The notes under the pieces were generated by a model. It did not search any database. It was not told the DNA's origin and saw only the letters and a list, made by a program, of their open reading frames with translations. A stretch of 64,000 nt of DNA. It comes from Hydra vulgaris (taxonomy: Eukaryota; Cnidaria; Hydrozoa; Anthoathecata; Hydridae). Below are positions 17,699 through 51,001 of the stretch, piece by piece (within the stretch, counting starts at the first letter, position 1; each line of letters starts with the position of its first letter). The stretch covers positions 5,850,001 to 5,914,000 of the forward strand of contig NC_088931.1 of the NCBI RefSeq assembly GCF_038396675.1. The letters run 5' to 3'. Made by a program: the position numbers and the translations under genes.

Positions 17699-20600
17699 CA
17701 GGGCCGTTTTTGGAGCGCCGTAGGCTCTAGGCACTTTGCATAAAAGTTTAGCTGTAAGCCTTTTTTTCAATTTAAATGTCATGTACACGTTATTCAATTT
17801 ACATTATTTTTTAATTTTTGTACGTAGTCGTTAATGGGCCTAAAGTCGCTGTTTGTTTGATTATTCTGTATCTGTACACATGTTATGCCTTAAAGAAATT
17901 AAATTTTAACCATTTCATTAATTGTATTTCTCTCACTATCATTACTTTAGTTATGATCATGAAAAGCCATTAAAAATTCAGCAATCTATGGTTTGTTATT
18001 TGTTTTAAACGTTTCTTTAAATTTATCAATAGTTTACATTTATTTAAAAATGAAATTCTCAGAATTCCACGTATTATTTTAAAAAGTACGATTTTATTTG
18101 GTAGGTATTTTATTAGTTATGATTACGTTTTTGTAACTTATTAATAAGTTTTGTTAAATGTAATGTTTTATGGAATATATTTAAATGTTTTCCCCCTCTT
18201 TAAATGGGTTAACATATTTTATTTTATTTTTATGTTTTATGTCTATTCTATACTGAATATTTATTATGATTTTCAGAAATTCAAGTCATGTCCGATGGCG
18301 ATGGGTACAAGAGAAAGCACGAGTCTGGCTATATTAAACGGCAGAAAAAGCAAAGGAAAGAGGATGCATTAAAAAAAATGAAAGGTTCTTTGCTAAAAAT
18401 ATGTTAATAAAGTAGATGCTACTTCTGGCAATGACACTTCAATAAACTCTTTCGTTTTATTATGCAGAGAATATCCCATTACAGAATTTGAAATCTGATT
18501 TAAGCTTAAAAGGTAGACAATTTGGTGAAAAGATTAGATATGTACGCAGGGAATATTTTATAAGAAAACTGGTAAATAGAGAAATTGTCAGCAGGGATTG
18601 GCTCATATATTCGACCTTAACTGGTAAAGTGTTTTGTTATATTTGCAAGATATTTGGTTGCAAAACTGGCAGTGCTTGTACTAATAATGCACCAAGGAAT
18701 CAACTTATAACTGGTTTCGATGATTGGAAAAATGTTATTGCTAGGATAACCTCACATGAAAAATCAAAAGATCATTTTGGTGCTGTGTCGATGATGATGC
18801 AATACAAAAAGTCTACTCGAATTGATGTTGAACTTCAGAAGGAAAATGAGAAGTCTTGCAAATACTGGACTGAAGTCTTGAAGAGGGTTGTTGTAGTGAT
18901 AAAGTTTCTTGCTGAAAGGGGATTAGCTTTTCGTGGTGACAATCAATTGCATAACTCTCCTAACAATGAAAATTATCTTGGTTATATTGATCTGTTAGCT
19001 GAATTTGATCAATTTCTTAGAGAACACATTCAAAGATATGGAAATCCAGGAAAGGGAAATGTATCATATCTTTCAGCAAACATATGCGATGAATTCATTA
19101 ATATGAATTCATCAGGCAAAGTTTTGAAACAAATAATTTCTGAAATCAAGGATACTAAATATTATGGAATTAGCATCGATTCAACCCCTGATATTAGTCA
19201 TGTAGATCAGCTCACACTTGTTATTCGCTATGTACTCAAAAACAGAAATGTAGTAGAGCGATTTCTTCAATTTATTCCAATTGAACACCATGATGGAGAA
19301 TACGTATTTAATCCTGTGGTTGGTATTCTTCAGTTTCATGGAATAGACATCAAAAATTGCCGATCACAATTTTATGATAATGCCAGCAATATGAGTGGAA
19401 TATATTCTGGTGTGCAAGCTAGATTCAGAGAGATTAATCATTTAGCAGAATGGGTTTCATGTGCTGCCCACAGCCTAAACTTAGTTGGTTCAGCTGTCGT
19501 GGAGTGTTGTTCAGCAGCTGTAAATTATTTTGTTGTCATACAGTCAGTTTATAATTTTTTCTCAGCTTCAACGAAGAGATGGTCAACTCTTAAAGAACTT
19601 TTTAAAGAAAACGTATTTGTTTTACAAAGCTTATCAGAAACTAGGTGGTCCTCTAGAAGTGATGCCGCAAGAGCTTTCTATGCAAATTACTTACAAATTT
19701 GTCAAGCATTATGTGAAGTCACTAACAGCAAACATCAACCACCAGCAGCTGTTCATGAAGCGAAACCACTGGTTAAACATTTAGACTACTTTAAAAATGC
19801 GTTTATGTGTGTGATTTGGAAAGATTTACTTCAAAAGATGAATATTGTCAATAAAGCCTTACAGGAGCCGGGTATTGAGCTGTGCACCATCATTAAACTG
19901 TACGATGGTCTCATACAGTATTTTCATGATACACGCAGTAAGTTTGAAACATTCGAAGGCCAGGCAAAAGATCTCACAGAATCTGATTACAAAGAAGCTA
20001 CACAACGCAAGCGAATACGGAAGCGATTTGATGACGAAGTTATGGATACAAGTAGTCCCAGTTTAAATGTTAGTGCCAGTGATAATTTCCGTATTCAACA
20101 GTATTACGTTATCATAGACATACTTAATAATGAGATGGAAAAACTCAGAGCAGCTTATAAAGTATTGTACGAAAGGTTTAACATTCTTCTTGACAACAGA
20201 TCTTTGTCGAGTGAGGAAGTAGTGGCTAAAATCAAGGCACTAATTCAGTTGTATCCATCAGACCTCGAAGACGAATTTATCGATGAGTTTTTGCTGTTTT
20301 CTCAAAATGTTTAGTGATGGTAAATCGGTGTCTGATAAGATTAAGCTGCAAATAGACAATAAACTAGTTGCAAGTTTTCCAAATGTTAATATCGCTTTCA
20401 GGATTTATCTCTCTATATTAGGCACGAATTCAGAAGGTGAACGTTCTTTTTCAAAATTAAAACTGATAAAAAAATCTGCGTTCAACTATGGGGCAAGCCC
20501 GACTATCCTCCATGGCACTGCTATCAATTGAAAATGAAGTAATGCGGGACATGACATTTGAAGATGTTAGAGTTGATTTTGAAAATATCAAAAGTCGAAA

Positions 20601-22196: not shown

Positions 22197-22271
22197 AATA
22201 TATAGTTATGAAGCTTTATAAAGTATGCATACAGATCAACCGGTATGAAGTTATGTCTGGGTACGGCACTG

Positions 22272-22529
<258 letters not shown>

Positions 22530-22659
22530 TGCTTAATGCAAAATTTACATAATATTGCTCATTACTTTGAAAAAAATGAACTAATAATAAGTTGTAAAAG
22601 TGAAAAAGTTGAGTGTAAGTTGAAAAATCAGAGTTTCTTACGTAGGTTCTTTACGTAGG

Positions 22660-30185: not shown

Positions 30186-31920
30186 ATGAATAAAGTACCA
30201 AAAACCATCTTCAAATCAAGTTCAAAAACAAAAAACCATCTTCATCACCAAGTTCTCTAAACCTATCATTCACTAATATTCGTGGTCTTCGAAGTAATTT
30301 TTCTTCTGTTGAGTCTTATCTCTTGCAAAGTTCACCAGACCTACTTGCTCTTTGTGAGACTAATTTGAGTTCGGCTGTCTCATCTTGTGATCTTAGTGTT
30401 GATGGTTATCTTCCTCTGATTCGTAAAGACTCCAATAGTCACATGCTTGGCCTGGGCATTTACATTCGTAAGAATTCACCTGTTTGTCGTGAAACTAGGT
30501 TTGAATCCACAGACTATTCTTTCATGTGCTTTCGTTTAGCACCACTTCCTCTATTGCCTTTCTCTTTGTTCTATATCGCTCTCCTTCATCTCAAGATTGC
30601 ACTCTTTTTGATGTTATTTCTGATCATATTGACCAAGCCCTCTCTCTTTATCCATCAGCTAATATAGTTGTTATTGGTGACTTTAATGCTCACCACTCTG
30701 TATGGCTTGGCTCTAGTGTCAGTGATTCTGCAGGCTTTAAAGCCCACAATTTTTGCCTTTCACAATCCCTAACTCAAATAGTCAACTTTCCAACTCGCTT
30801 TCCAGACAACCCGAATCATTTACCTTCTCTACTTGGCTTATGTCTTGTTTCTGATCCTAGTCAGTGCTCAGTCTCTCCACATTCACCCTTAGGTGCTTCT
30901 GATCACAGTTTGATCTCTCAAAAACTTATATCTCATTCTTCTTCATCACCTGAATCATCCTATTATCATACCTCTTACAACTACAGTAAAGCTGACTGGG
31001 ATTCTTTCGGTGATTTTCTTCGTGATGGCCCTTGGGTAAAAATCTTTCAACTTCCTATCGATAAATGTGCTTCTTACACAACTTCGTGGATTCAGGCTGG
31101 CATGGAATCTTTTATTCCCTCTCGACGATTCCAGGTCAAGCCTCACTTTCCTCCATGGTTTTCTTCACACTGTGCTGCTGCGATTGCCAATCGAAACCGT
31201 TACTTCCATATTTATCAGCAAAAAAATTCTCCAGAAAACAGACGTCTGTTTATTACTGCTAGAAACAACTGTAAAAAGGTTTTGTCTAACGCCAAAACCT
31301 ATTCTCAGGTCATGAAATCTCGTATTTCATCTCAAAAATTAGGCTCTCGTGACTTCTGGAGAATCTTTAATAATATCAATAATAAGGGCAAATCTTTAAT
31401 TCCACCTATCTTGTATGGCTCAAACTTTGTTACCTCACCTAAAGACAAAGCCGAATTGTTTGTTAAAAACTTTTCATCAATATCATCTCTCGATTCCACT
31501 AGTTGCGTTCTACCTGATATTGCCAACAAACAGGTTGATCCATTGCTTGACATTCGTATCACTCCAGCTTCTGTATCTAAAGTGATTTCCTGCCTAGACT
31601 CTTCTACAGCTTGTGGCCCGGACAACATACCTGTTATTGTCTTGCAGAAGTGTTCTCCGGAGCTGTCGTCTATACTCTCAAAACTATTCAACATGTGCTT
31701 ATCAGAGTCTTGTTTTCCAGCCTGCTGGAAAGTGGCATCTGTTATCCCTATCTTCAAAAGTTCTGGGGAGCGATCTGATTCGTCTAACTACTGTCCCATA
31801 AGTCTTCTTCCTATCATAAGCAAGGTTTTTGAATCTTTCATTAACAAACACTTAATTTCTCATCTTGAATCTAATAACTTACTTTCTGACCATCAATATG
31901 TTCTACAGCTGATTTGCTAA
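30186..31920 (+). pseudogene. LINE ORF2, endonuclease and RT fingers
   Basis: Begins at ATG 30,186 (MNKVPKTIF), with a one-base slip in an A-rich run near 30,220. APE endonuclease blocks: 'SFTNIRGLRSNFSSVESYL', 'LLALCETNL' (catalytic Glu), 'GLGIYIRKNS', then after a frameshift near 30,540 'VLYRSPSSQDC', 'IVVIGDFNAHHSVWLG' and 'GASDHSLI' (catalytic Asp-His). The linker is followed by RT fingers: 'SRDFWRIFNNINNKGKS', 'STACGPDNIPVIVLQKCS', 'WKVASVIPIFKSSGERSD', 'NYCPISLLPIISKVFE' (usual RPIS is CPIS here) and 'LLSDHQY'. A deletion after HQY (31,899-31,901) removes the GFR block and shifts the frame, giving the stop at 31,918. Confidence 0.9.
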
Positions 31921-33086
31921 CAGTAATAACTGACAGGTTTTATCGTGCATTAGATGAAGGTGGAGAGGTTAAGGCCATCGCTCTTGACATTTCAAAAGCG
32001 TTTGATAAAGTTTGGCATGCTGGTCTTCTCCATAAGCTTTCTTCTTAAGGTGTATCCAGCAACATCTTTAAGATCATTGAGTCCTTCCTTTCCAATCGTA
32101 GCATAAAAGTTGTCCTCGATGGACAACACTCTTCTTCTTATTCTGTAACTTCAGGGATTCCTCAAGATTCTATCCTTGGCCCTATACTCTTTTTAATTTA
32201 CATTAACGATCTTCCAGATATTCTCACATCTAAGGTGGCATTGTTTGCTGATGATACTACCATTTATTCTTGTCGTGATAAGAAACCAACACCCTCTGAT
32301 TGCTTGGAAGGGGCATTTGAGCTTGAAAAGGATCTCACTTCCGCTACAGCATGGGGCTCACAGTGGCTGGTGAACTTTAATTCAGATAAAACTCAATTTT
32401 TTTCAGCTAATCGTTATCGCAATAATTTAGATCATCCTATATTTATGAACGGTGATGTACTCGATGAGTCACCTACTCTTCATCTTCTAGGATTAACTCT
32501 TACTTCCAATCTTTCTTGGAAACCATATATCAAATCGGTTGCAAAATTAGCATCTGCTAAGGTTGCATCTCTTTATCGAGCTCGCCACTTTCTTACTCTG
32601 GATTCTATTCTCTATCTCTATAAATCTCAAATCCGGCCTTGTATGGAATACTGTTGCCATATCTGGGGTGGATCTTCTAATGATGCCCTTTCTCTTTTAG
32701 ACAAGGTGCAAAAACACATTGTAAACATAGTTGGACCTGCTCTTGCAGCCAACCTCCAACCATTATCACATCGTTGTAATGTTGCTTCTCTTTCTCTTTT
32801 CTACAAATACTATAATGGGCACTGCTTTAAAGAGCTAGTGTCTCTTGTGCCATCTACTAAAATTCATTCTCGTGTTACTTGTCATTCAATTAAGTCTCAT
32901 CCTTTTTCTGTGACTGTTCCTAAGTGCTCCAAAAACGCTTTTTCGTATAGTTTTTTTCCTCGAACATCAGCTCTTTGGAGTTCGCTTCCTTCATCTTGCT
33001 TTCCTGATTCATATAATTTGCAATCTTTTAAATTGTCCGTCAATCTTTATCTTGCTCTACAATCTTCATCTTTTCTCTTACAGTAA
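31902..33086 (+). pseudogene. LINE ORF2, RT palm to C-terminus
   Basis: In the frame after the deletion: 'STADLLTVITDRFYRALDEG', motif A 'AIALDISKAFDKVWHAGL' (catalytic Asp present), a TAA at 32,046-32,048 replacing a codon before 'GVSSNIF', and motif B 'SGIPQDSILGPILFLIYIND' (usual PQG is PQD). Then come motif C 'LFADDTTIYSC', 'WLVNFNSDKTQFFSANR', 'LHLLGLTLTSNLSWKPYI' and the C-terminal 'YKSQIRPCMEYCCHIWGG' and 'SFFPRTSALWSSLPSSCFPD'. Both catalytic Asp motifs are intact, so the copy is relatively young. Confidence 0.9.
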
Positions 33087-33181
33087 CTTCCAACTTTAAT
33101 TAGTGGCTGCTTGCAGCCTTGATGGAAGCGAAGATGTTTAAAAAAAAAAAAAAAAAGTCAATAGCTATTTTGTTACCGACG

Positions 33182-33210
33182 CACAGTGGGCCAGTAGGTG
33201 GACAAAATGG
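33182..33210 (+). repeat. Left terminal repeat, RSS-like (13-bp spacer)
   Basis: Heptamer CACAGTG at 33,182-33,188, a 13-bp spacer beginning with the shared 'ggccag', then a nonamer-like 'ACAAAATGG' at 33,202-33,210. The vertebrate consensus nonamer is ACAAAAACC. The shared block 'ggacaaaat' also occurs at the right end. Confidence 0.75.
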
Positions 33211-33472
33211 GAAAAATTTTAGTTGTCTAATCTTGAAAACCTATTTAATTTTAGTATCTACATATACTAGGAGAAATCTATTGATAATTTATTTATATTA
33301 AATCCCTTAGTTACCAGGACTCTAAGCATTTGAATATTGAGATAAAATAAAAAAATAAAAAAATTATAAATAAGTAATTAACGGTGACATCAACGTTGTG
33401 TTATATTTCAATTACATCTACGTTTTTGAAACAAAAAACTAGTACATGTTTTTCTAGAGTATTTAGAGATAA

Positions 33473-33638
33473 GAAAAACCAATGTGTGCAATAAATTTGT
33501 CATAGCATGTTATCTCAGTTATACTTTGAAAATTACAGATTAAAAAAAAAAATTTTTTTGAAAAACCAATGTGTGAAATAAATTTGTCATAGCATGTTAT
33601 CTCAGTTATACTTTGAAAATTACAGATTAAAAAAAAGA
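33473..33638. repeat. 87-bp tandem duplication in the RAG1-like element
   Basis: Two copies of a unit starting 'gaaaaaccaatgtgtg' and containing 'ttgtcatagcatgttatctc', with period 87 bp. They differ at few positions. Confidence 0.9.
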
Positions 33639-34146
33639 AACTTATTTTTTGCCGCACAATAACTAATAATTACCACAATTTGCCATGTGTTGTCTTATAC
33701 TTATTTGAGCTATATGATGCTTCAATCGAGTTTTAATTGATTGCTCGTCCCCTTAAATCCCCGTTCAGATTTTATGTATGTTTTAACTTGGTTGCTATGG
33801 TACTAAATTTTGCATAGCAACAACTTATTTTTACATTAACGTTGTTTTAACAGTATTTTACTTGCGCTAAATACACAATATTGGGGGTATGTATTAAAAT
33901 GAGATTCAGAATTCTTATGAGGTTAACTTTTTTTGGTTACTATGAATACCTTACTTTGCATAACATATTTTCGGTAGTTGTTAGTAAGTTAATTACTAAC
34001 ATTGACAGTAATTTAATTACTTTTAATTTTAATTACTAACACTTGTAGTAACTTAATTACTAACAAGTATTAGTAGTCCAGGCGGCATATATATTATAAC
34101 ATTTTACTTTTAAATACAAAATACTTGTTACAATAATTATTTAGAT

Positions 34147-36117
34147 ATGGTTTTGTTAAACTTAGACATTCATAATTTTCTCCAAAAAAACAATCTTAGT
34201 ATTTCAAAACAAAATATTACTGAAGATATATTAAAATTTATTCAGCCAAAATTTGCTGATTTTAAAGACGTTGATTTTAGACATGCTGTTCAACGATTTG
34301 TTTACTTGTATAAAAAAAAGTGGAAATCTGCAAACTATACTGTGAAAAGTTTTGAAAAGAAGTTTGTGAACTGGCTTAATGAATATTTAATTGTCAGAAA
34401 AAAAGACAATGAATCAACTGCAAGTAGACGTGGTCGAAAACCAGTTGCATTTGATAATAGTTCTAATAAAACTAAAAAACGGCGTGTATCTTGTTTAATT
34501 GAATCTCATTCTTCCAATGAATTATTTTTTGCTGCTAATAAAAAATTTAGAGATGAATCTGTTGTTATTGCTGCCAAGAATGTTTTAAATATATCAAATA
34601 CAGATAAAGCAACTAAATATTCAGCAGACGAAGCACTGGCTTTAATAATTGATGCAAGTCTGACAAAAGCTTCCTATCAATTGATTAGAAGCGGAGCCTT
34701 GGAGAAAGAATATAACATCTACCCCGCTTACAATGATGTCAGAGATGCAAAATTGAAATGTTATCCTGCAAACATAACAGTGGAGGACTATTCAGCTTCA
34801 GTTCCTTTAAAAGATTTAATGACTCATACTTTGCAAAGAATCTGTGCAGTTCAGGAACCTGTGCTAAGGCACTTGATATTGAACGACAAAGAATTAAAAA
34901 CAATGACACTAACGTGTAAGGCTGGTTTTGATGGTGCTACTGGCTAAAGCATTTATAAACAAGTTTTATCAGAACCCGACATTAACAGAGATTTAAAGCG
35001 TGAAGAATCATTATTTATTACTTGTCTTGTCCCATTGGATTTGACTGGATTTAACAACAGCAACGAAAAGGTGCCTATTTGGAGAAATCAAAAGTCGTCC
35101 TCCACAGCCTATTGTAGATCCATAAGATTTGCATACAAAATGGAATCCAAGGAATCTGTGATTGAAGAAGATCAGTACATTAAAAGTGAGATAGAAAGCT
35201 TGGGTATGATTTTATTAGAGGTTTGCGGATCTTCTATTGAAGTGAATTGTATTATTGAACTTACAATGATTGATGGGAAGGTTCAAACAATATTATCTGA
35301 AAAAAATAACTCATACCAATGCTGTTCAGTGTGTGGTGTCTCTCCAAAAAATATGAATAGTCTTGATATCCTTAATATAGATTATACTAACAGAGAGTTC
35401 AAATATGGTCTTTCCAGTCTTCATGCATGGATTCGATTTTTTGAGATGTTATTGCACATTACATATAAAAAAGAAACAAGAAAGTGGCAAGCAAGATCTA
35501 AAGAACAGGCATCTGTAGCTAAACAAAAGATTCAGACTGATTTTATGAACAAAATGGGACTTGTTGTTGATTTCCCTAAAAGTGGTGGTTCTGGAACAAG
35601 TAATGATGGCAATACCTCAAGGCGTGCTTTTGCAGCATATGAACAAACAGCTGAAATTCTGGGTATTGACCAAAACCTTATATTCAGATTTTACATTATC
35701 TTGGTAACGCTCTCTTCAGGATATGAAATAGACTGCCTAAAGTTCAAGGATTATTGTTTTGACACTTTTAGACTATATGTGTCCCTTTATCCATGGTATT
35801 ACATGGCTCAATCAGTTCACAAAGTATTGATACATGGACATGACATAATTAAAAGCCTTACATTACCCATCGGACTTATGTCAGAGGAAGCTCAAGAGGC
35901 TAGAAATAAAGACTTTAAATCTTATCGCGAAAATTTCAGCCGAAAAACATCCAGAAAAGCAACAAATACTGATCTTATCAATAGACTCCTAGTTTCCAGT
36001 GATCCTGTTATTTCATCATTGCGTAAATCAATATCACACCAAACAAATCATAAAGCATTTCCTTCAGATGTTTTACAATTACTTAAACAATCTTCAAACG
36101 ATATTATTGTTTTATAA
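34147..36117 (+). pseudogene. RAG1/Transib-superfamily transposase, one internal stop
   Basis: A 657-codon frame from ATG 34,147, interrupted once by TAA at 34,945-34,947 (codon 267). The RAG1 core order is seen: first Asp in 'GFDGATG' (262); 'SSTAYCRSIRFAY' matching the RAG1 segment before the second Asp; second Asp in 'TMIDGK' (376); zinc ligands 'CSVC' (393/396); 'SSLHAWIRFFE' and 'GTSNDGNTSRRAF'; zinc His pair 'VHKVLIH' (558/563); and catalytic Glu in 'EAQEARNKD' (584). RAG1 has the equivalent D600, D708, C727/C730, H937/H942 and E962 in the same order. A basic stretch 'RRGRKPVAF' with 'KKRR' precedes the core and could bind the ends. There is no RING domain. The enzyme family cuts by nick-and-hairpin chemistry. 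The family assignment is strong; the subfamily is not determined. The stop leaves the first Asp apart from the rest, so this copy should not make active enzyme. Confidence 0.92.
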
Positions 36118-36306
36118 TTTTTTGATGTAATTTAAAATTGATAACATTTTCTTGCACTATTTTTTGCTTTTATTATTCCTAAAACATTATTTACCTAAAT
36201 ACTCAATTTTTATTCAATATAGGTGGGTCAAAAATCCGATAAGATATTCAAATATCAATTTACCATTTTGTAACTAAGGAAAGTAACCGGTAACTAAGCA
36301 ATATAA

Positions 36307-36543
36307 GTATCCATAACAACTAAATTTAAAAAATTATCACTTTTGTAAGAAGTGTGATCTTATATTGGTACTCATGCCAAATTTAGTGAATATAGCACTT
36401 ATAAAATATCTGCAGATAACAAAAGTAGGTTGTTGCTAAGCAAAATAAAGGTATCCATAGCAACGAAATAAAAAAATATTACCTTCATAAAAAGCGCAGA
36501 CATCATATTAGTACTCATACTAATTTTAGTGAATATAGCTCTA
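36307..36543. repeat. Tandem duplication (period about 144 bp) near the right end
   Basis: Copy 1 at 36,307-36,399 and copy 2 at 36,451-36,543 share 'gtatccata.caac' at the start and 'tttagtgaatatagc' at the end. The block 'ggtatccatagcaacg' also recurs inverted near the left end (33,933-33,953, 'gttactatgaatacc'). Confidence 0.75.
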
Positions 36544-36559
36544 ATATTAAATTAGTTAT

Positions 36560-36597
36560 GAATTTTGTCCAGTAAAAGTGCATTCTGGCCCACTGTG
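36560..36597 (-). repeat. Right terminal repeat, RSS-like (22-bp spacer)
   Basis: Read inward on the minus strand: CACAGTG (36,597-36,591), a 22-bp spacer starting 'ggccag', then 'ACAAAATTC' (36,568-36,560). The extra 9 bp relative to the left end make the two termini asymmetric. Confidence 0.75.
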
Positions 36598-36602
36598 CGA
36601 CG

Positions 36603-47158: not shown

Positions 47159-48508
47159 ATGGTCTCGGAAGAGCGACAAGCTTTAATACACAATGATGAA
47201 TTACTGAGAGTAACAGATCCTGAATTTAATGGAGTTAATGCTTCTGGATCGGAACAATGTGAGTCCTCACCACGAAACCAAAATGAAACTTCGGTCAAAC
47301 AGGAAGACTTAACAACAGTATGTGAAACATTTTGGAACATTTGCAACACTATTCAAGGTCTTCCTATTCTTGCAATACCATATACGTTTAAATCAGGAGG
47401 TTGGTGGTCTCTTTTGACACTTGTGATTGTTGCTGCTGCTTCAAATTATACAAGCATCATACTTGTTAGGAGTTTATACGAAATACGAGATGGAGTAAAA
47501 GTTCGCGTAAGAAGTAGTTACATGGATATAGGAGAAGCATTCTGGGAAAAAGGCGGGAGGCTTATGGTGATGATTATTATGGTGATTGAATTAGTTTTTG
47601 TTGCCACTATGTATCCCATTTTAGTTGGTGCAATGTTTAATAAATCATTTCCAGATATAAGCTTGCCGATTTGGGCTTGGACAATGATAGGAGGAATAGC
47701 ATTGTTACCAAATACTCTTTTAAAAAATTTATCTCAAGTAGCCTGGACTAGTATATTAACTGTTTCCAGTGCCATTATTATATTTGTTAGCATAGTAGCA
47801 TACAGCATAGCTAGGTCGAGTGAATGGCAAGTTTCTAACATGAACAATTTTGAACCAAACGAGTTCCCTGCAGCACTTGGCATTCTTGTTGCTTGTTACT
47901 TAGCCCAACCGTTTGTTCCGTTCATTGAATCAACAATGAAAAGACCAGAAAAATTTGAATCAACTCTAAATTATGCTTTTATAGCAATGTCTATTATGAG
48001 TGTTTTGGTGGGAATATTCGCAGATTTAACATTTTATCCTGACACAGACGAAGTAGTAACAAATAATTTACCGGTTGGTGCTGTACGCCAAATTGTAAAC
48101 GCAATGGCTGCTATTTTAGCTTTTACTTCTTACACTTTGCCGATGTTTACAAGCTTTGATATTATTGAAAAATCTAACTTTCCGTGTTTTCCCGCAGATT
48201 TTGGTAATAATGTATATAGTCTACCAGTTCAAATGATGAGACTACTATTAGTATTAGCTACGATATTTATGGCTGCATTTATTCCACGGTTCACATACTT
48301 ACTTGCACTTATTGGTAGTATTACTGGCATTGCATTGGAGTTTATTTTCCCAGCTCTATTTCATATGAAAATTTATTGTATGCACCTTAGGTGGTATGAG
48401 TTTGGGATTGACATACTTATTGTATTTATCGGAACTCTCACAATGACAATAAGTTTAATAGTGTCGTGGATATCTTTATATAATTGTTTTGCCTTTCAAA
48501 ACTGTTGA
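47159..48508 (+). CDS. Vesicular inhibitory amino acid transporter-like protein (SLC32/AAAP)
   Basis: An intact 449-residue single-exon ORF. Residues 1-55 form a hydrophilic N-terminus (expected cytosolic), followed by about ten membrane segments, starting with 'FWNICNTIQGLPILAIPYTF' (58-77) and 'LLTLVIVAAASNYTSIILV' (85-103). VGAT-like landmarks are the N-IQG-----PY motif in TM1, 'VRVRSSYMDIGEAFW', 'IELVFVATMYPILVG', 'LLPNTLLKNLSQVAW', 'FIESTMKRPEKF', 'VVTNNLPVGAVRQIVNAM' and 'SYTLPMFTSFDIIEKS', in the same order as in VGAT/SLC32A1. The family loads GABA and glycine into synaptic vesicles using the proton gradient. Substrate here is inferred, since invertebrates have several divergent paralogues. 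It is shorter than vertebrate VGAT (about 525), mostly at the N-terminus. ATG 47,159 is the first in frame. An upstream coding exon is not excluded. Confidence 0.9.
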   Translation: MVSEERQALIHNDELLRVTDPEFNGVNASGSEQCESSPRNQNETSVKQEDLTTVCETFWNICNTIQGLPILAIPYTFKSGGWWSLLTLVIVAAASNYTSIILVRSLYEIRDGVKVRVRSSYMDIGEAFWEKGGRLMVMIIMVIELVFVATMYPILVGAMFNKSFPDISLPIWAWTMIGGIALLPNTLLKNLSQVAWTSILTVSSAIIIFVSIVAYSIARSSEWQVSNMNNFEPNEFPAALGILVACYLAQPFVPFIESTMKRPEKFESTLNYAFIAMSIMSVLVGIFADLTFYPDTDEVVTNNLPVGAVRQIVNAMAAILAFTSYTLPMFTSFDIIEKSNFPCFPADFGNNVYSLPVQMMRLLLVLATIFMAAFIPRFTYLLALIGSITGIALEFIFPALFHMKIYCMHLRWYEFGIDILIVFIGTLTMTISLIVSWISLYNCFAFQNC

Positions 48509-50380: not shown

Positions 50381-51001
50381 ATGGAGTGGTTGGAAAATCC
50401 TGAAGAAAAACTTCGAGAAGCGGCTTCTACCGGAGATAAAGATTTACTGAACAAGCTTATTACTAATGGGGCACAAATCAACTCTCAAAATAAAATGAAT
50501 GGATGGACAGCTTTGCACTGGGCATCTAAGAGAGGGCACTTTGAATTAGTTTGTATTTTACTACACCATCGCGCAGAACCCTCTATTAAAAACTTTAATG
50601 GTGAAACAGCAGCTGACGTCGCATTTAATGAAAAAATAAAACAGTTTATAATCTCCAAAACAACCAATATCTGTTTCCAAAATTTCACTGAAGACAAATA
50701 TGTTCAAACAGAAGCTTCGCATAATAACGAATTAATGTCTGTTATTACCACCAACGTCATCAGTTCCCCGGAACTAGTACTTAAGATCAAAGAGGTAAAG
50801 CAAACTGATTTTATAGAAATTGAGTTAGACTTGAGTAATTTAACATATCAAAATTTGATAGATACATGTGCCTATGAATTGAAATTAAAATCTAGTCTCG
50901 ATATTTCAAAAGTTCGAAAGCTTCCGAATACGATTATTAGGAAAGACAAAGACGTAAAAAGACTTAATCAATTCCAGGAAATCGAGATTGAGACGAATTG
51001 A
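50381..51001 (+). CDS. ANKRD40: Ankyrin repeat domain-containing protein 40 homologue
   Basis: An intact 206-residue single-exon ORF. Residues 1-40: 'ENPEEKLREAASTGDKDLLN' and the first ankyrin repeat with 'GAQINSQNKMNGWTALHW', which runs into a second repeat ('ASKRGHFELVCILLHHRA', 'EPSIKNFNGETAADVAF'). A variable linker (about 85-130) is followed by the ANKRD40-specific C-terminal region: 'DFIEIELDLSNLTYQNLID', 'ELKLKSSLDISKVRKLPN' and 'IRKDKDVKRLNQFQEIEIE'. The C-terminal 'RKLPNT-hydrophobic-RKDKDV-RL-FQE' string identifies this family rather than a generic ankyrin protein. The molecular role is poorly known. Human ANKRD40 is longer, mainly in the linker. The ATG at 50,381 sits one base after an acceptor-like AG, so the mRNA may begin with a spliced 5' exon or leader. 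Confidence 0.93.
   Translation: MEWLENPEEKLREAASTGDKDLLNKLITNGAQINSQNKMNGWTALHWASKRGHFELVCILLHHRAEPSIKNFNGETAADVAFNEKIKQFIISKTTNICFQNFTEDKYVQTEASHNNELMSVITTNVISSPELVLKIKEVKQTDFIEIELDLSNLTYQNLIDTCAYELKLKSSLDISKVRKLPNTIIRKDKDVKRLNQFQEIEIETN

Follow-up and report, generated by a model that had tools for sequence, protein, structure and literature searches.

A 64,000-nucleotide stretch of the Hydra vulgaris genome (NCBI RefSeq assembly GCF_038396675.1, contig NC_088931.1, positions 5,850,001 to 5,914,000; hereafter the window, to whose coordinates all unlabeled positions refer) contains a 3,416-bp Transib transposon on the plus strand (33182 to 36597). The element is real and its boundaries were drawn correctly; it is a defective representative of an established kind of transposon. 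In identity and transposition history, it is very probably an inactivated member of a recently active cut-and-paste Transib family with a high copy number, which we label family A. The ends of this family are unequal: each carries a heptamer and a nonamer-like motif, separated by a short spacer at one end and a long spacer at the other. As read from the sequences, this end architecture is 12/23-like, resembling the recombination signal sequences (RSSs) of V(D)J recombination. The asymmetric heptamer-spacer-nonamer layout is the most RAG-like feature of the element and was missed in the first-pass annotation of the window.

Ends of the element have unequal spacers

The element is flanked by two copies of the target-site duplication CGACG (33177 to 33181 and 36598 to 36602, unstranded) and terminates in a 13-bp terminal inverted repeat (TIR), CACAGTGGGCCAG (33182 to 33194, plus strand; 36585 to 36597, minus strand), of which bases 1 to 7 are the RSS heptamer CACAGTG. 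The first-pass annotation was therefore right about the inverted ends and the CGACG on both flanks. When up to two mismatches were allowed, CACAGTGGGCCAG matched the window only at these two ends (0.12 matches expected; 1 of 100 shuffles reached 2). Between the ends lies a transposase gene of 656 codons (34147 to 36117, plus strand), in which codon 267 is a TAA (34945 to 34947, plus strand), its single in-frame stop.

Past the 13-mer, both ends share the motif TGGACAAAAT, which is 4 bp farther on at the 5' end (33199 to 33208) and 13 bp farther on at the 3' end. Spacers of 13 bp at the 5' end and 22 bp at the 3' end separate the heptamer from the hexamer ACAAAA, which heads the nonamer-like sequences ACAAAATGG (33202 to 33210, plus strand, beginning within the shared motif) and ACAAAATTC (36560 to 36568, minus strand). 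The pattern CACAGTG-N9..27-ACAAAA occurs on either strand of the window solely at these two ends, and, with frequencies taken from the window, ACAAAA has a chance of about 2.8% of falling within this 19-bp range at any one end.

The 13-mer has 1,986 occurrences in the genome searched (911.5 Mb, 15 contigs), 1,007 on one strand and 979 on the other; because the reversed pattern occurs 0 and 0 times, this abundance is not due to chance. Ends were sampled at 99 of the first 100 of these places, which all fall within the initial 33 Mb of contig C1 (C1:3327243 was left out). Among them were 31 end pairs with a whole element; adding the window copy gives 32 pairs. Family A accounts for 24 of these, family B, whose protein is 52% identical to that of family A over the part read, for 2, and family C, a group of shorter elements (1.3 to 1.9 kb), for 6. 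A second sample was drawn by gene, using a protein search that scored the best 67 of 9,289 candidate places and is thus not random; its copies ranked 2 to 21, the best scoring, were used for insertion and spacer counts.

Spacers were 13/22 in 28 of the 32 pairs and 13/24 in 2; the remaining 2 pairs had lost one motif, and none was symmetric, although 24 of the 32 represent one family, and family A with its near relatives dominates all spacer counts given here. Among the 20 gene-sampled copies, 15 were 13/22, 5 were unreadable at one or both ends, and none was symmetric. At the 99 ends, which were picked by the 13-mer with the motif ignored, ACAAAA was first found at 13 bp in 35, at 22 bp in 37, and at 24 bp in 2; single ends had it at 10, 12, 15, and, in a nested insertion, 28 bp, and in 21 the motif was not found.

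The short/long layout recurs in families A, B, C, and D and in the family of element L044, that is, in 5 of the 7 elements or families for which both ends were observed. In family B the motif is ACAAAACCT, 13 and 24 bp from the heptamers. Family D (L040) is 15/22, its long end reading ACAAAC in one copy and being rearranged in the other, while the L044 family is 12/22; L044 itself, a pair lacking a duplication, reads ACTAAA, and a sibling end reads ACAAAA. In families A, B, D, and L044, it is the short end that precedes the transposase.

The RSS consensus, as given in the available part of PMC8289069, is CACAGTG and ACAAAAACC separated by 12 or 23 bp. The Hydra ends share with the vertebrate 12RSS and 23RSS the heptamer CACAGTG, the ACAAAA that starts the nonamer ACAAAAACC, and the pairing of a short with a long spacer, which 30 of the 32 pairs display. 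They lack the exact 12/23 spacing and the full nonamer, having spacers of 13/22 or 13/24 and the partial nonamer matches ACAAAATGG, ACAAAATTC, and ACAAAACCT.

Several observations weigh against a functional reading of this asymmetry. A 316-bp near-perfect palindrome (L050:6186-6501, 88% self-complementary without gaps) has two ends with 13-bp spacers, and a 539-bp stretch (L052) is spaced at about 19/24 and lacks a duplication. A further type, seen in 5 of the 99 ends, has AAAAAAACC at a spacing of about 19 bp, and some ends have lost the ACAAAA motif. The long ends of A, C, D, L044, and L048 are also recognizably alike, and the asymmetry in spacer length may have been inherited.

A possible pairing role for the unequal ends

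The transposase contains a motif resembling the RAG1 nonamer-binding domain (NBD), RRGRKP...KTKKRR (residues 94 to 113; 34426 to 34485, plus strand), a candidate nonamer-binding segment whose equivalence to the RAG1 NBD is presumptive. Families A, B (as GGRP), and D, as well as L054, have a GR(K/P)...KTK.R stretch N-terminal to the catalytic core, and L045 has a weaker form of it. An NBD with GRP positions is present in both Transib subgroups (PMC9435367).

By analogy with RAG and with the transposase HzTransib, a transposase dimer would hold one short and one long end, the N-terminal GR(K/P) segment would contact the A-rich nonamer-like motif, and the DDE site would cut at the outer edge of CACAGTG. 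The freed ends would then attack the target with a 5-bp stagger. The unequal spacers would most likely bias synapsis toward one 5' and one 3' end, and such a bias could be a forerunner or a parallel of the 12/23 rule that operates without RAG2. We give a role of the unequal spacers in pairing a chance that lies below even or, at the most, reaches it. Only tentatively do we suggest the stronger form of this idea, in which a one-protein cnidarian Transib enforces a 12/23-like rule: its ends would work only as a short plus a long end read by the GRP-type segment, and asymmetry and its enforcement would predate RAG2 and the immune system, surviving to the present in a high-copy family that has many open genes.

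A serious competitor, whose chances come fairly near to even, is that these are ordinary Transibs that need the 13-bp ends alone and that the unequal spacers are a functionless relic of descent. The 13-mer is common to the families seen (which were found through it), the long ends named above are homologous, and the available text of PMC8289069 says of most Transib families that their ends are symmetric. Simple descent fits less well with a spacer length that stays constant while its sequence changes: families A, B, and C all have a 13-bp short spacer yet differ in its sequence, and the 24-bp long spacer of family B is unrelated in sequence. The absence of symmetric spacing likewise counts against a relic, though with the weight of family A just noted, as does the retention of the motif core with single-letter changes in family D and L044.

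Family A is abundant and has spread recently

Family A copies are on average 98.5% identical in pairwise comparisons (24 copies; range, 97.6 to 99.1%), and each differs by 0.4 to 1.3% from the family plurality sequence built from them. The 23 pairs in 33 Mb extrapolate, very roughly and assuming an even spread, to some 600 family A pairs genome-wide. The best 67 of the 9,289 candidate places were full-length and all 97 to 100% identical; 40 had no stop and were open over 654 to 656 aligned residues, and 27, including the window copy, had at least one stop.

Insertion, mostly into C-N-N-N-G sites, has left regular traces. Exact 5-bp duplications, which the first-pass annotation had proposed from one copy, flank 26 of the 32 TIR pairs obtained by collecting copies through their 13-bp termini, as it had advised. 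Exact duplications also flank 13 of the 20 gene-sampled copies; in 1 more the two flanks disagree at a single base, and in the other 6 an end is lacking, changed, or nested. These 26 and 13, with one each from L047 and the L040 element, give 41 exact duplications: C is first in 36 and G last in 36, and the patterns CNNNG, CRNYG, CANTG, and CGNCG account for 31, 22, 11, and 1, respectively, against a window background of 2.2% for CNNNG, 0.5% for CRNYG, and 0.3% for CANTG. Since C is favored directly before the duplication (10 of 26 and 6 of 13) and G directly after it (14 of 26 and 7 of 13), the target motif leans to CCANTGG. The available part of PMC3276498 gives 5-bp duplications for Drosophila hopper and transib2, in another host, and the target motif CCANTGG, which resembles the C-R-N-Y-G lean of the 41 Hydra sites.

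Empty target sites, which the first-pass annotation had also recommended as a check, were searched for by comparing the joined flanks of 26 copies with the fetched loci. Gapless paralogous empty sites were found for three: L012 (96.9% over 194 bp), L021 (93.3% over 195 bp), and L036 (94.0% over 116 bp), the last lying inside a family C end, where one side of the match spans just 16 bp. A fourth match, short and containing gaps, was excluded from the count, and the fetched loci held no empty site for the window insertion itself.

Not all of the data point to recent activity. Only 1 of the 24 family A copies sampled by ends has a frame of at least 640 codons, so most copies are dead; of the 32 pairs, 3 lack a duplication and another 3 are off by one base; and CMC-Transib, although putatively active, is outside the most expressed families in the available part of a Hydra study (PMC12220107). 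From these frames and the stops in 27 of the best 67 places, it could be argued that family A is a fossil, long inactive and recent in looks only. We consider this unlikely, in view of the mean identity, the 40 open places, and the exact duplications in most pairs examined. The same study lists CMC-Transib among 14 putatively active transposable element families enriched in AEP. The claim of recent mobility made for the window element thus holds for the family's spread and fails for the copy itself, which is not intact. Because of its in-frame stop, the window copy would now depend on transposase supplied in trans for any movement.

The gene product is a predicted Transib transposase

The TAA falls five residues past D262 and splits the transposase frame into open reading frames (ORFs) of 266 and 360 codons, contradicting the first-pass description of a complete transposon with one ORF. 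The seven catalytic and zinc-binding residues that it named (D262, D376, C393, C396, H558, H563, and E584) are all present at those positions and are matched by identical residues in the alignment to HzTransib. In the first-pass annotation, their RAG1 counterparts are D600, D708, and E962 and the zinc ligands C727, C730, H937, and H942; DDE residues and zinc ligands occur in this order in RAG1 and Transib.

HzTransib, which we assume to be the Helicoverpa zea transposase (PDB 6pqn and five further entries), was the sole PDB match to the single sequence (E = 3.5e-100), with homology over residues 155 to 646. A four-sequence profile also placed the protein with HzTransib (375 bits, E = 4.9e-111). 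The RAG1L chain of 6b40, presumably ProtoRAG, scored 13 bits (E = 0.19), a bacterioferritin came up at E = 0.71, and no vertebrate RAG1 chain was retrieved from PDB by this profile up to an E value of 10. Pfam returned one subthreshold match, to the unrelated family PF23341 (E = 0.023), NCBIfam returned none, and an Rfam search of the window found no match. A single-sequence structure model had a mean pLDDT of 33 and was unusable.

The two transposase halves are the only ORFs of at least 80 amino acids inside the element; no second gene, RAG2-like or other, was found among them, as the first-pass annotation had said of a RAG2 partner. The element therefore has the homologous transposase, the DDE and zinc ligands, the CAC heptamer termini, the 5-bp GC-leaning duplication, and the single gene of the Transib superfamily, and it has neither the RAG1L-type core nor the RAG2L gene of a RAGL (RAG1-RAG2) transposon. 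Its lack of autonomy, owing to the TAA, is a defect of this copy and has no bearing on superfamily membership. From its sequence, the predicted product is a Transib-clade DDE transposase and not RAG1 or RAG1L, and its closeness to HzTransib suggests Transib Subgroup II of PMC9435367. Of the "RAG1/Transib type" originally assigned, the Transib half is upheld and the RAG1 half is not; likewise, kinship with the ancestor of the V(D)J recombinase holds at superfamily depth alone. It is very improbable that the element is a RAG1/RAGL-branch member, a direct relative of that ancestor that has lost RAG2L: the RSS-consensus heptamer, the RAG1 order of catalytic and zinc residues, and end lengths (13 bp, 4/13 bp, and 10 bp) equal to those of AanRAGL (PMC9435367) would fit, but we rejected such membership on the HzTransib and ProtoRAG scores, and neither a vertebrate RAG1 chain in PDB (up to an E value of 10) nor a second gene in the element was detected.

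Unusual junctions and neighboring sequences

Two odd junctions among the sampled loci were considered and set aside. The head-to-head ends in L040 (CACTGTG-CGAG-CACAGTG) are not a signal joint, since CGAGC flanks both sides of L040:412-4410; this is a nested insertion, a Transib set into the very edge of another Transib, with an odd inverted repeat inside the long end. The doubled end in L036 is an insertion into the end of another copy and not a junction. At L103/L104 (C5:27035027-27038563), a right end abuts GGCCAGAATGCA of another end, as if a heptamer-to-heptamer junction had lost some bases.

The window copy also contains an 87-bp tandem duplication (33473 to 33646, unstranded) whose two copies are 94% alike. 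One of its 20-base words is present twice in the window copy and is doubled in none of the 23 other family A copies; 12 of these contain a single exact occurrence and the other 11 contain none.

Upstream of the element, at 30526 to 33086, are pieces of a non-LTR retrotransposon, with an Exo_endo_phos_2 endonuclease and a weak match to RVT_1 (E = 0.00022) that falls short of the Pfam cutoff, followed by a poly(A) run that stops about 20 bp short of the Transib insertion. A 608-amino-acid ORF at 18488 to 20314 matches DUF4371 (PF14291, E = 6e-15), a domain common in hAT-like transposases, and an ORF at 22245 to 22658 consists largely of an IY repeat encoded by TA-rich simple sequence and is probably not a gene. 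Host-like genes for an Aa_trans amino acid transporter (E = 1.8e-66) and an ankyrin-repeat protein lie at 47159 to 48508 and 50381 to 51001, respectively.

Relation to known systems and significance

Transibs in Hydra and asymmetric Transib ends have already been published, and the layout is not new in kind, because the literature contains asymmetric insect Transibs, asymmetry by subgroup, Hydra Transibs, and the AanRAGL end lengths. According to the available part of PMC8355894, a 12/23 asymmetry within 1 bp occurs in Drosophila Transib5 and in Anopheles Transib2 and N1 to N3; the Hydra elements differ from these in comprising several diverged families in one cnidarian genome, with spacers of 13/22, 13/24, 12/22, and 15/22. 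In PMC9435367, which includes Hydra vulgaris Transibs, Subgroup I Transibs are all asymmetric and Subgroup II Transibs are of both kinds. That paper names HvuTransib-7_HMp and HvuTransib-9_HMp, of the same superfamily and species; the window element may well belong to one of the named families, and figure 1g of that paper may show Hydra ends. Judging by the titles and abstract openings of the papers listed in our searches, we found no published Hydra spacer statistics, sister families, or target motif.

AanRAGL, from Aureococcus anophagefferens, has a 13-bp element, a 4/13-bp spacing, a 10-bp element, and a 5-bp target-site duplication (PMC9435367); its end lengths equal those of family A, whereas its end sequences differ and it carries RAG1L and RAG2L. 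HzTransib, as described in the available part of PMC8289069, has a homologous transposase, including the DDE, CxxC, and HxxxxH positions, and ends clearly resembling the RSS heptamer, but these ends are symmetric with little or no nonamer similarity, in contrast to the 13/22 ends of Hydra family A. Unlike vertebrate RAG1/2, the Hydra element is mobile DNA without RAG2, has spacers of 13/22 or 13/24, and gave no vertebrate RAG1 match in PDB searches. Autonomous Transibs are usually present in one or a few copies according to the available text of PMC4411706, unlike the high-copy Hydra family.

The origin of the 12/23 rule is debated: in the parts of these papers available, RSS asymmetry is derived from Transib ends (PMC8355894), while invertebrate RAGL is expected to be fairly insensitive to asymmetry (PMC7204232). 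Transgenic Hydra lines are made (PMC12220107, in the part available). The worth of the element lies in its abundance, its many open relatives, and its 12/23-like ends, and not in being the V(D)J ancestor. With its RSS-like unequal ends, its numerous recent copies, and open genes numbering in the dozens, the family would make the origin of the 12/23 rule directly testable.

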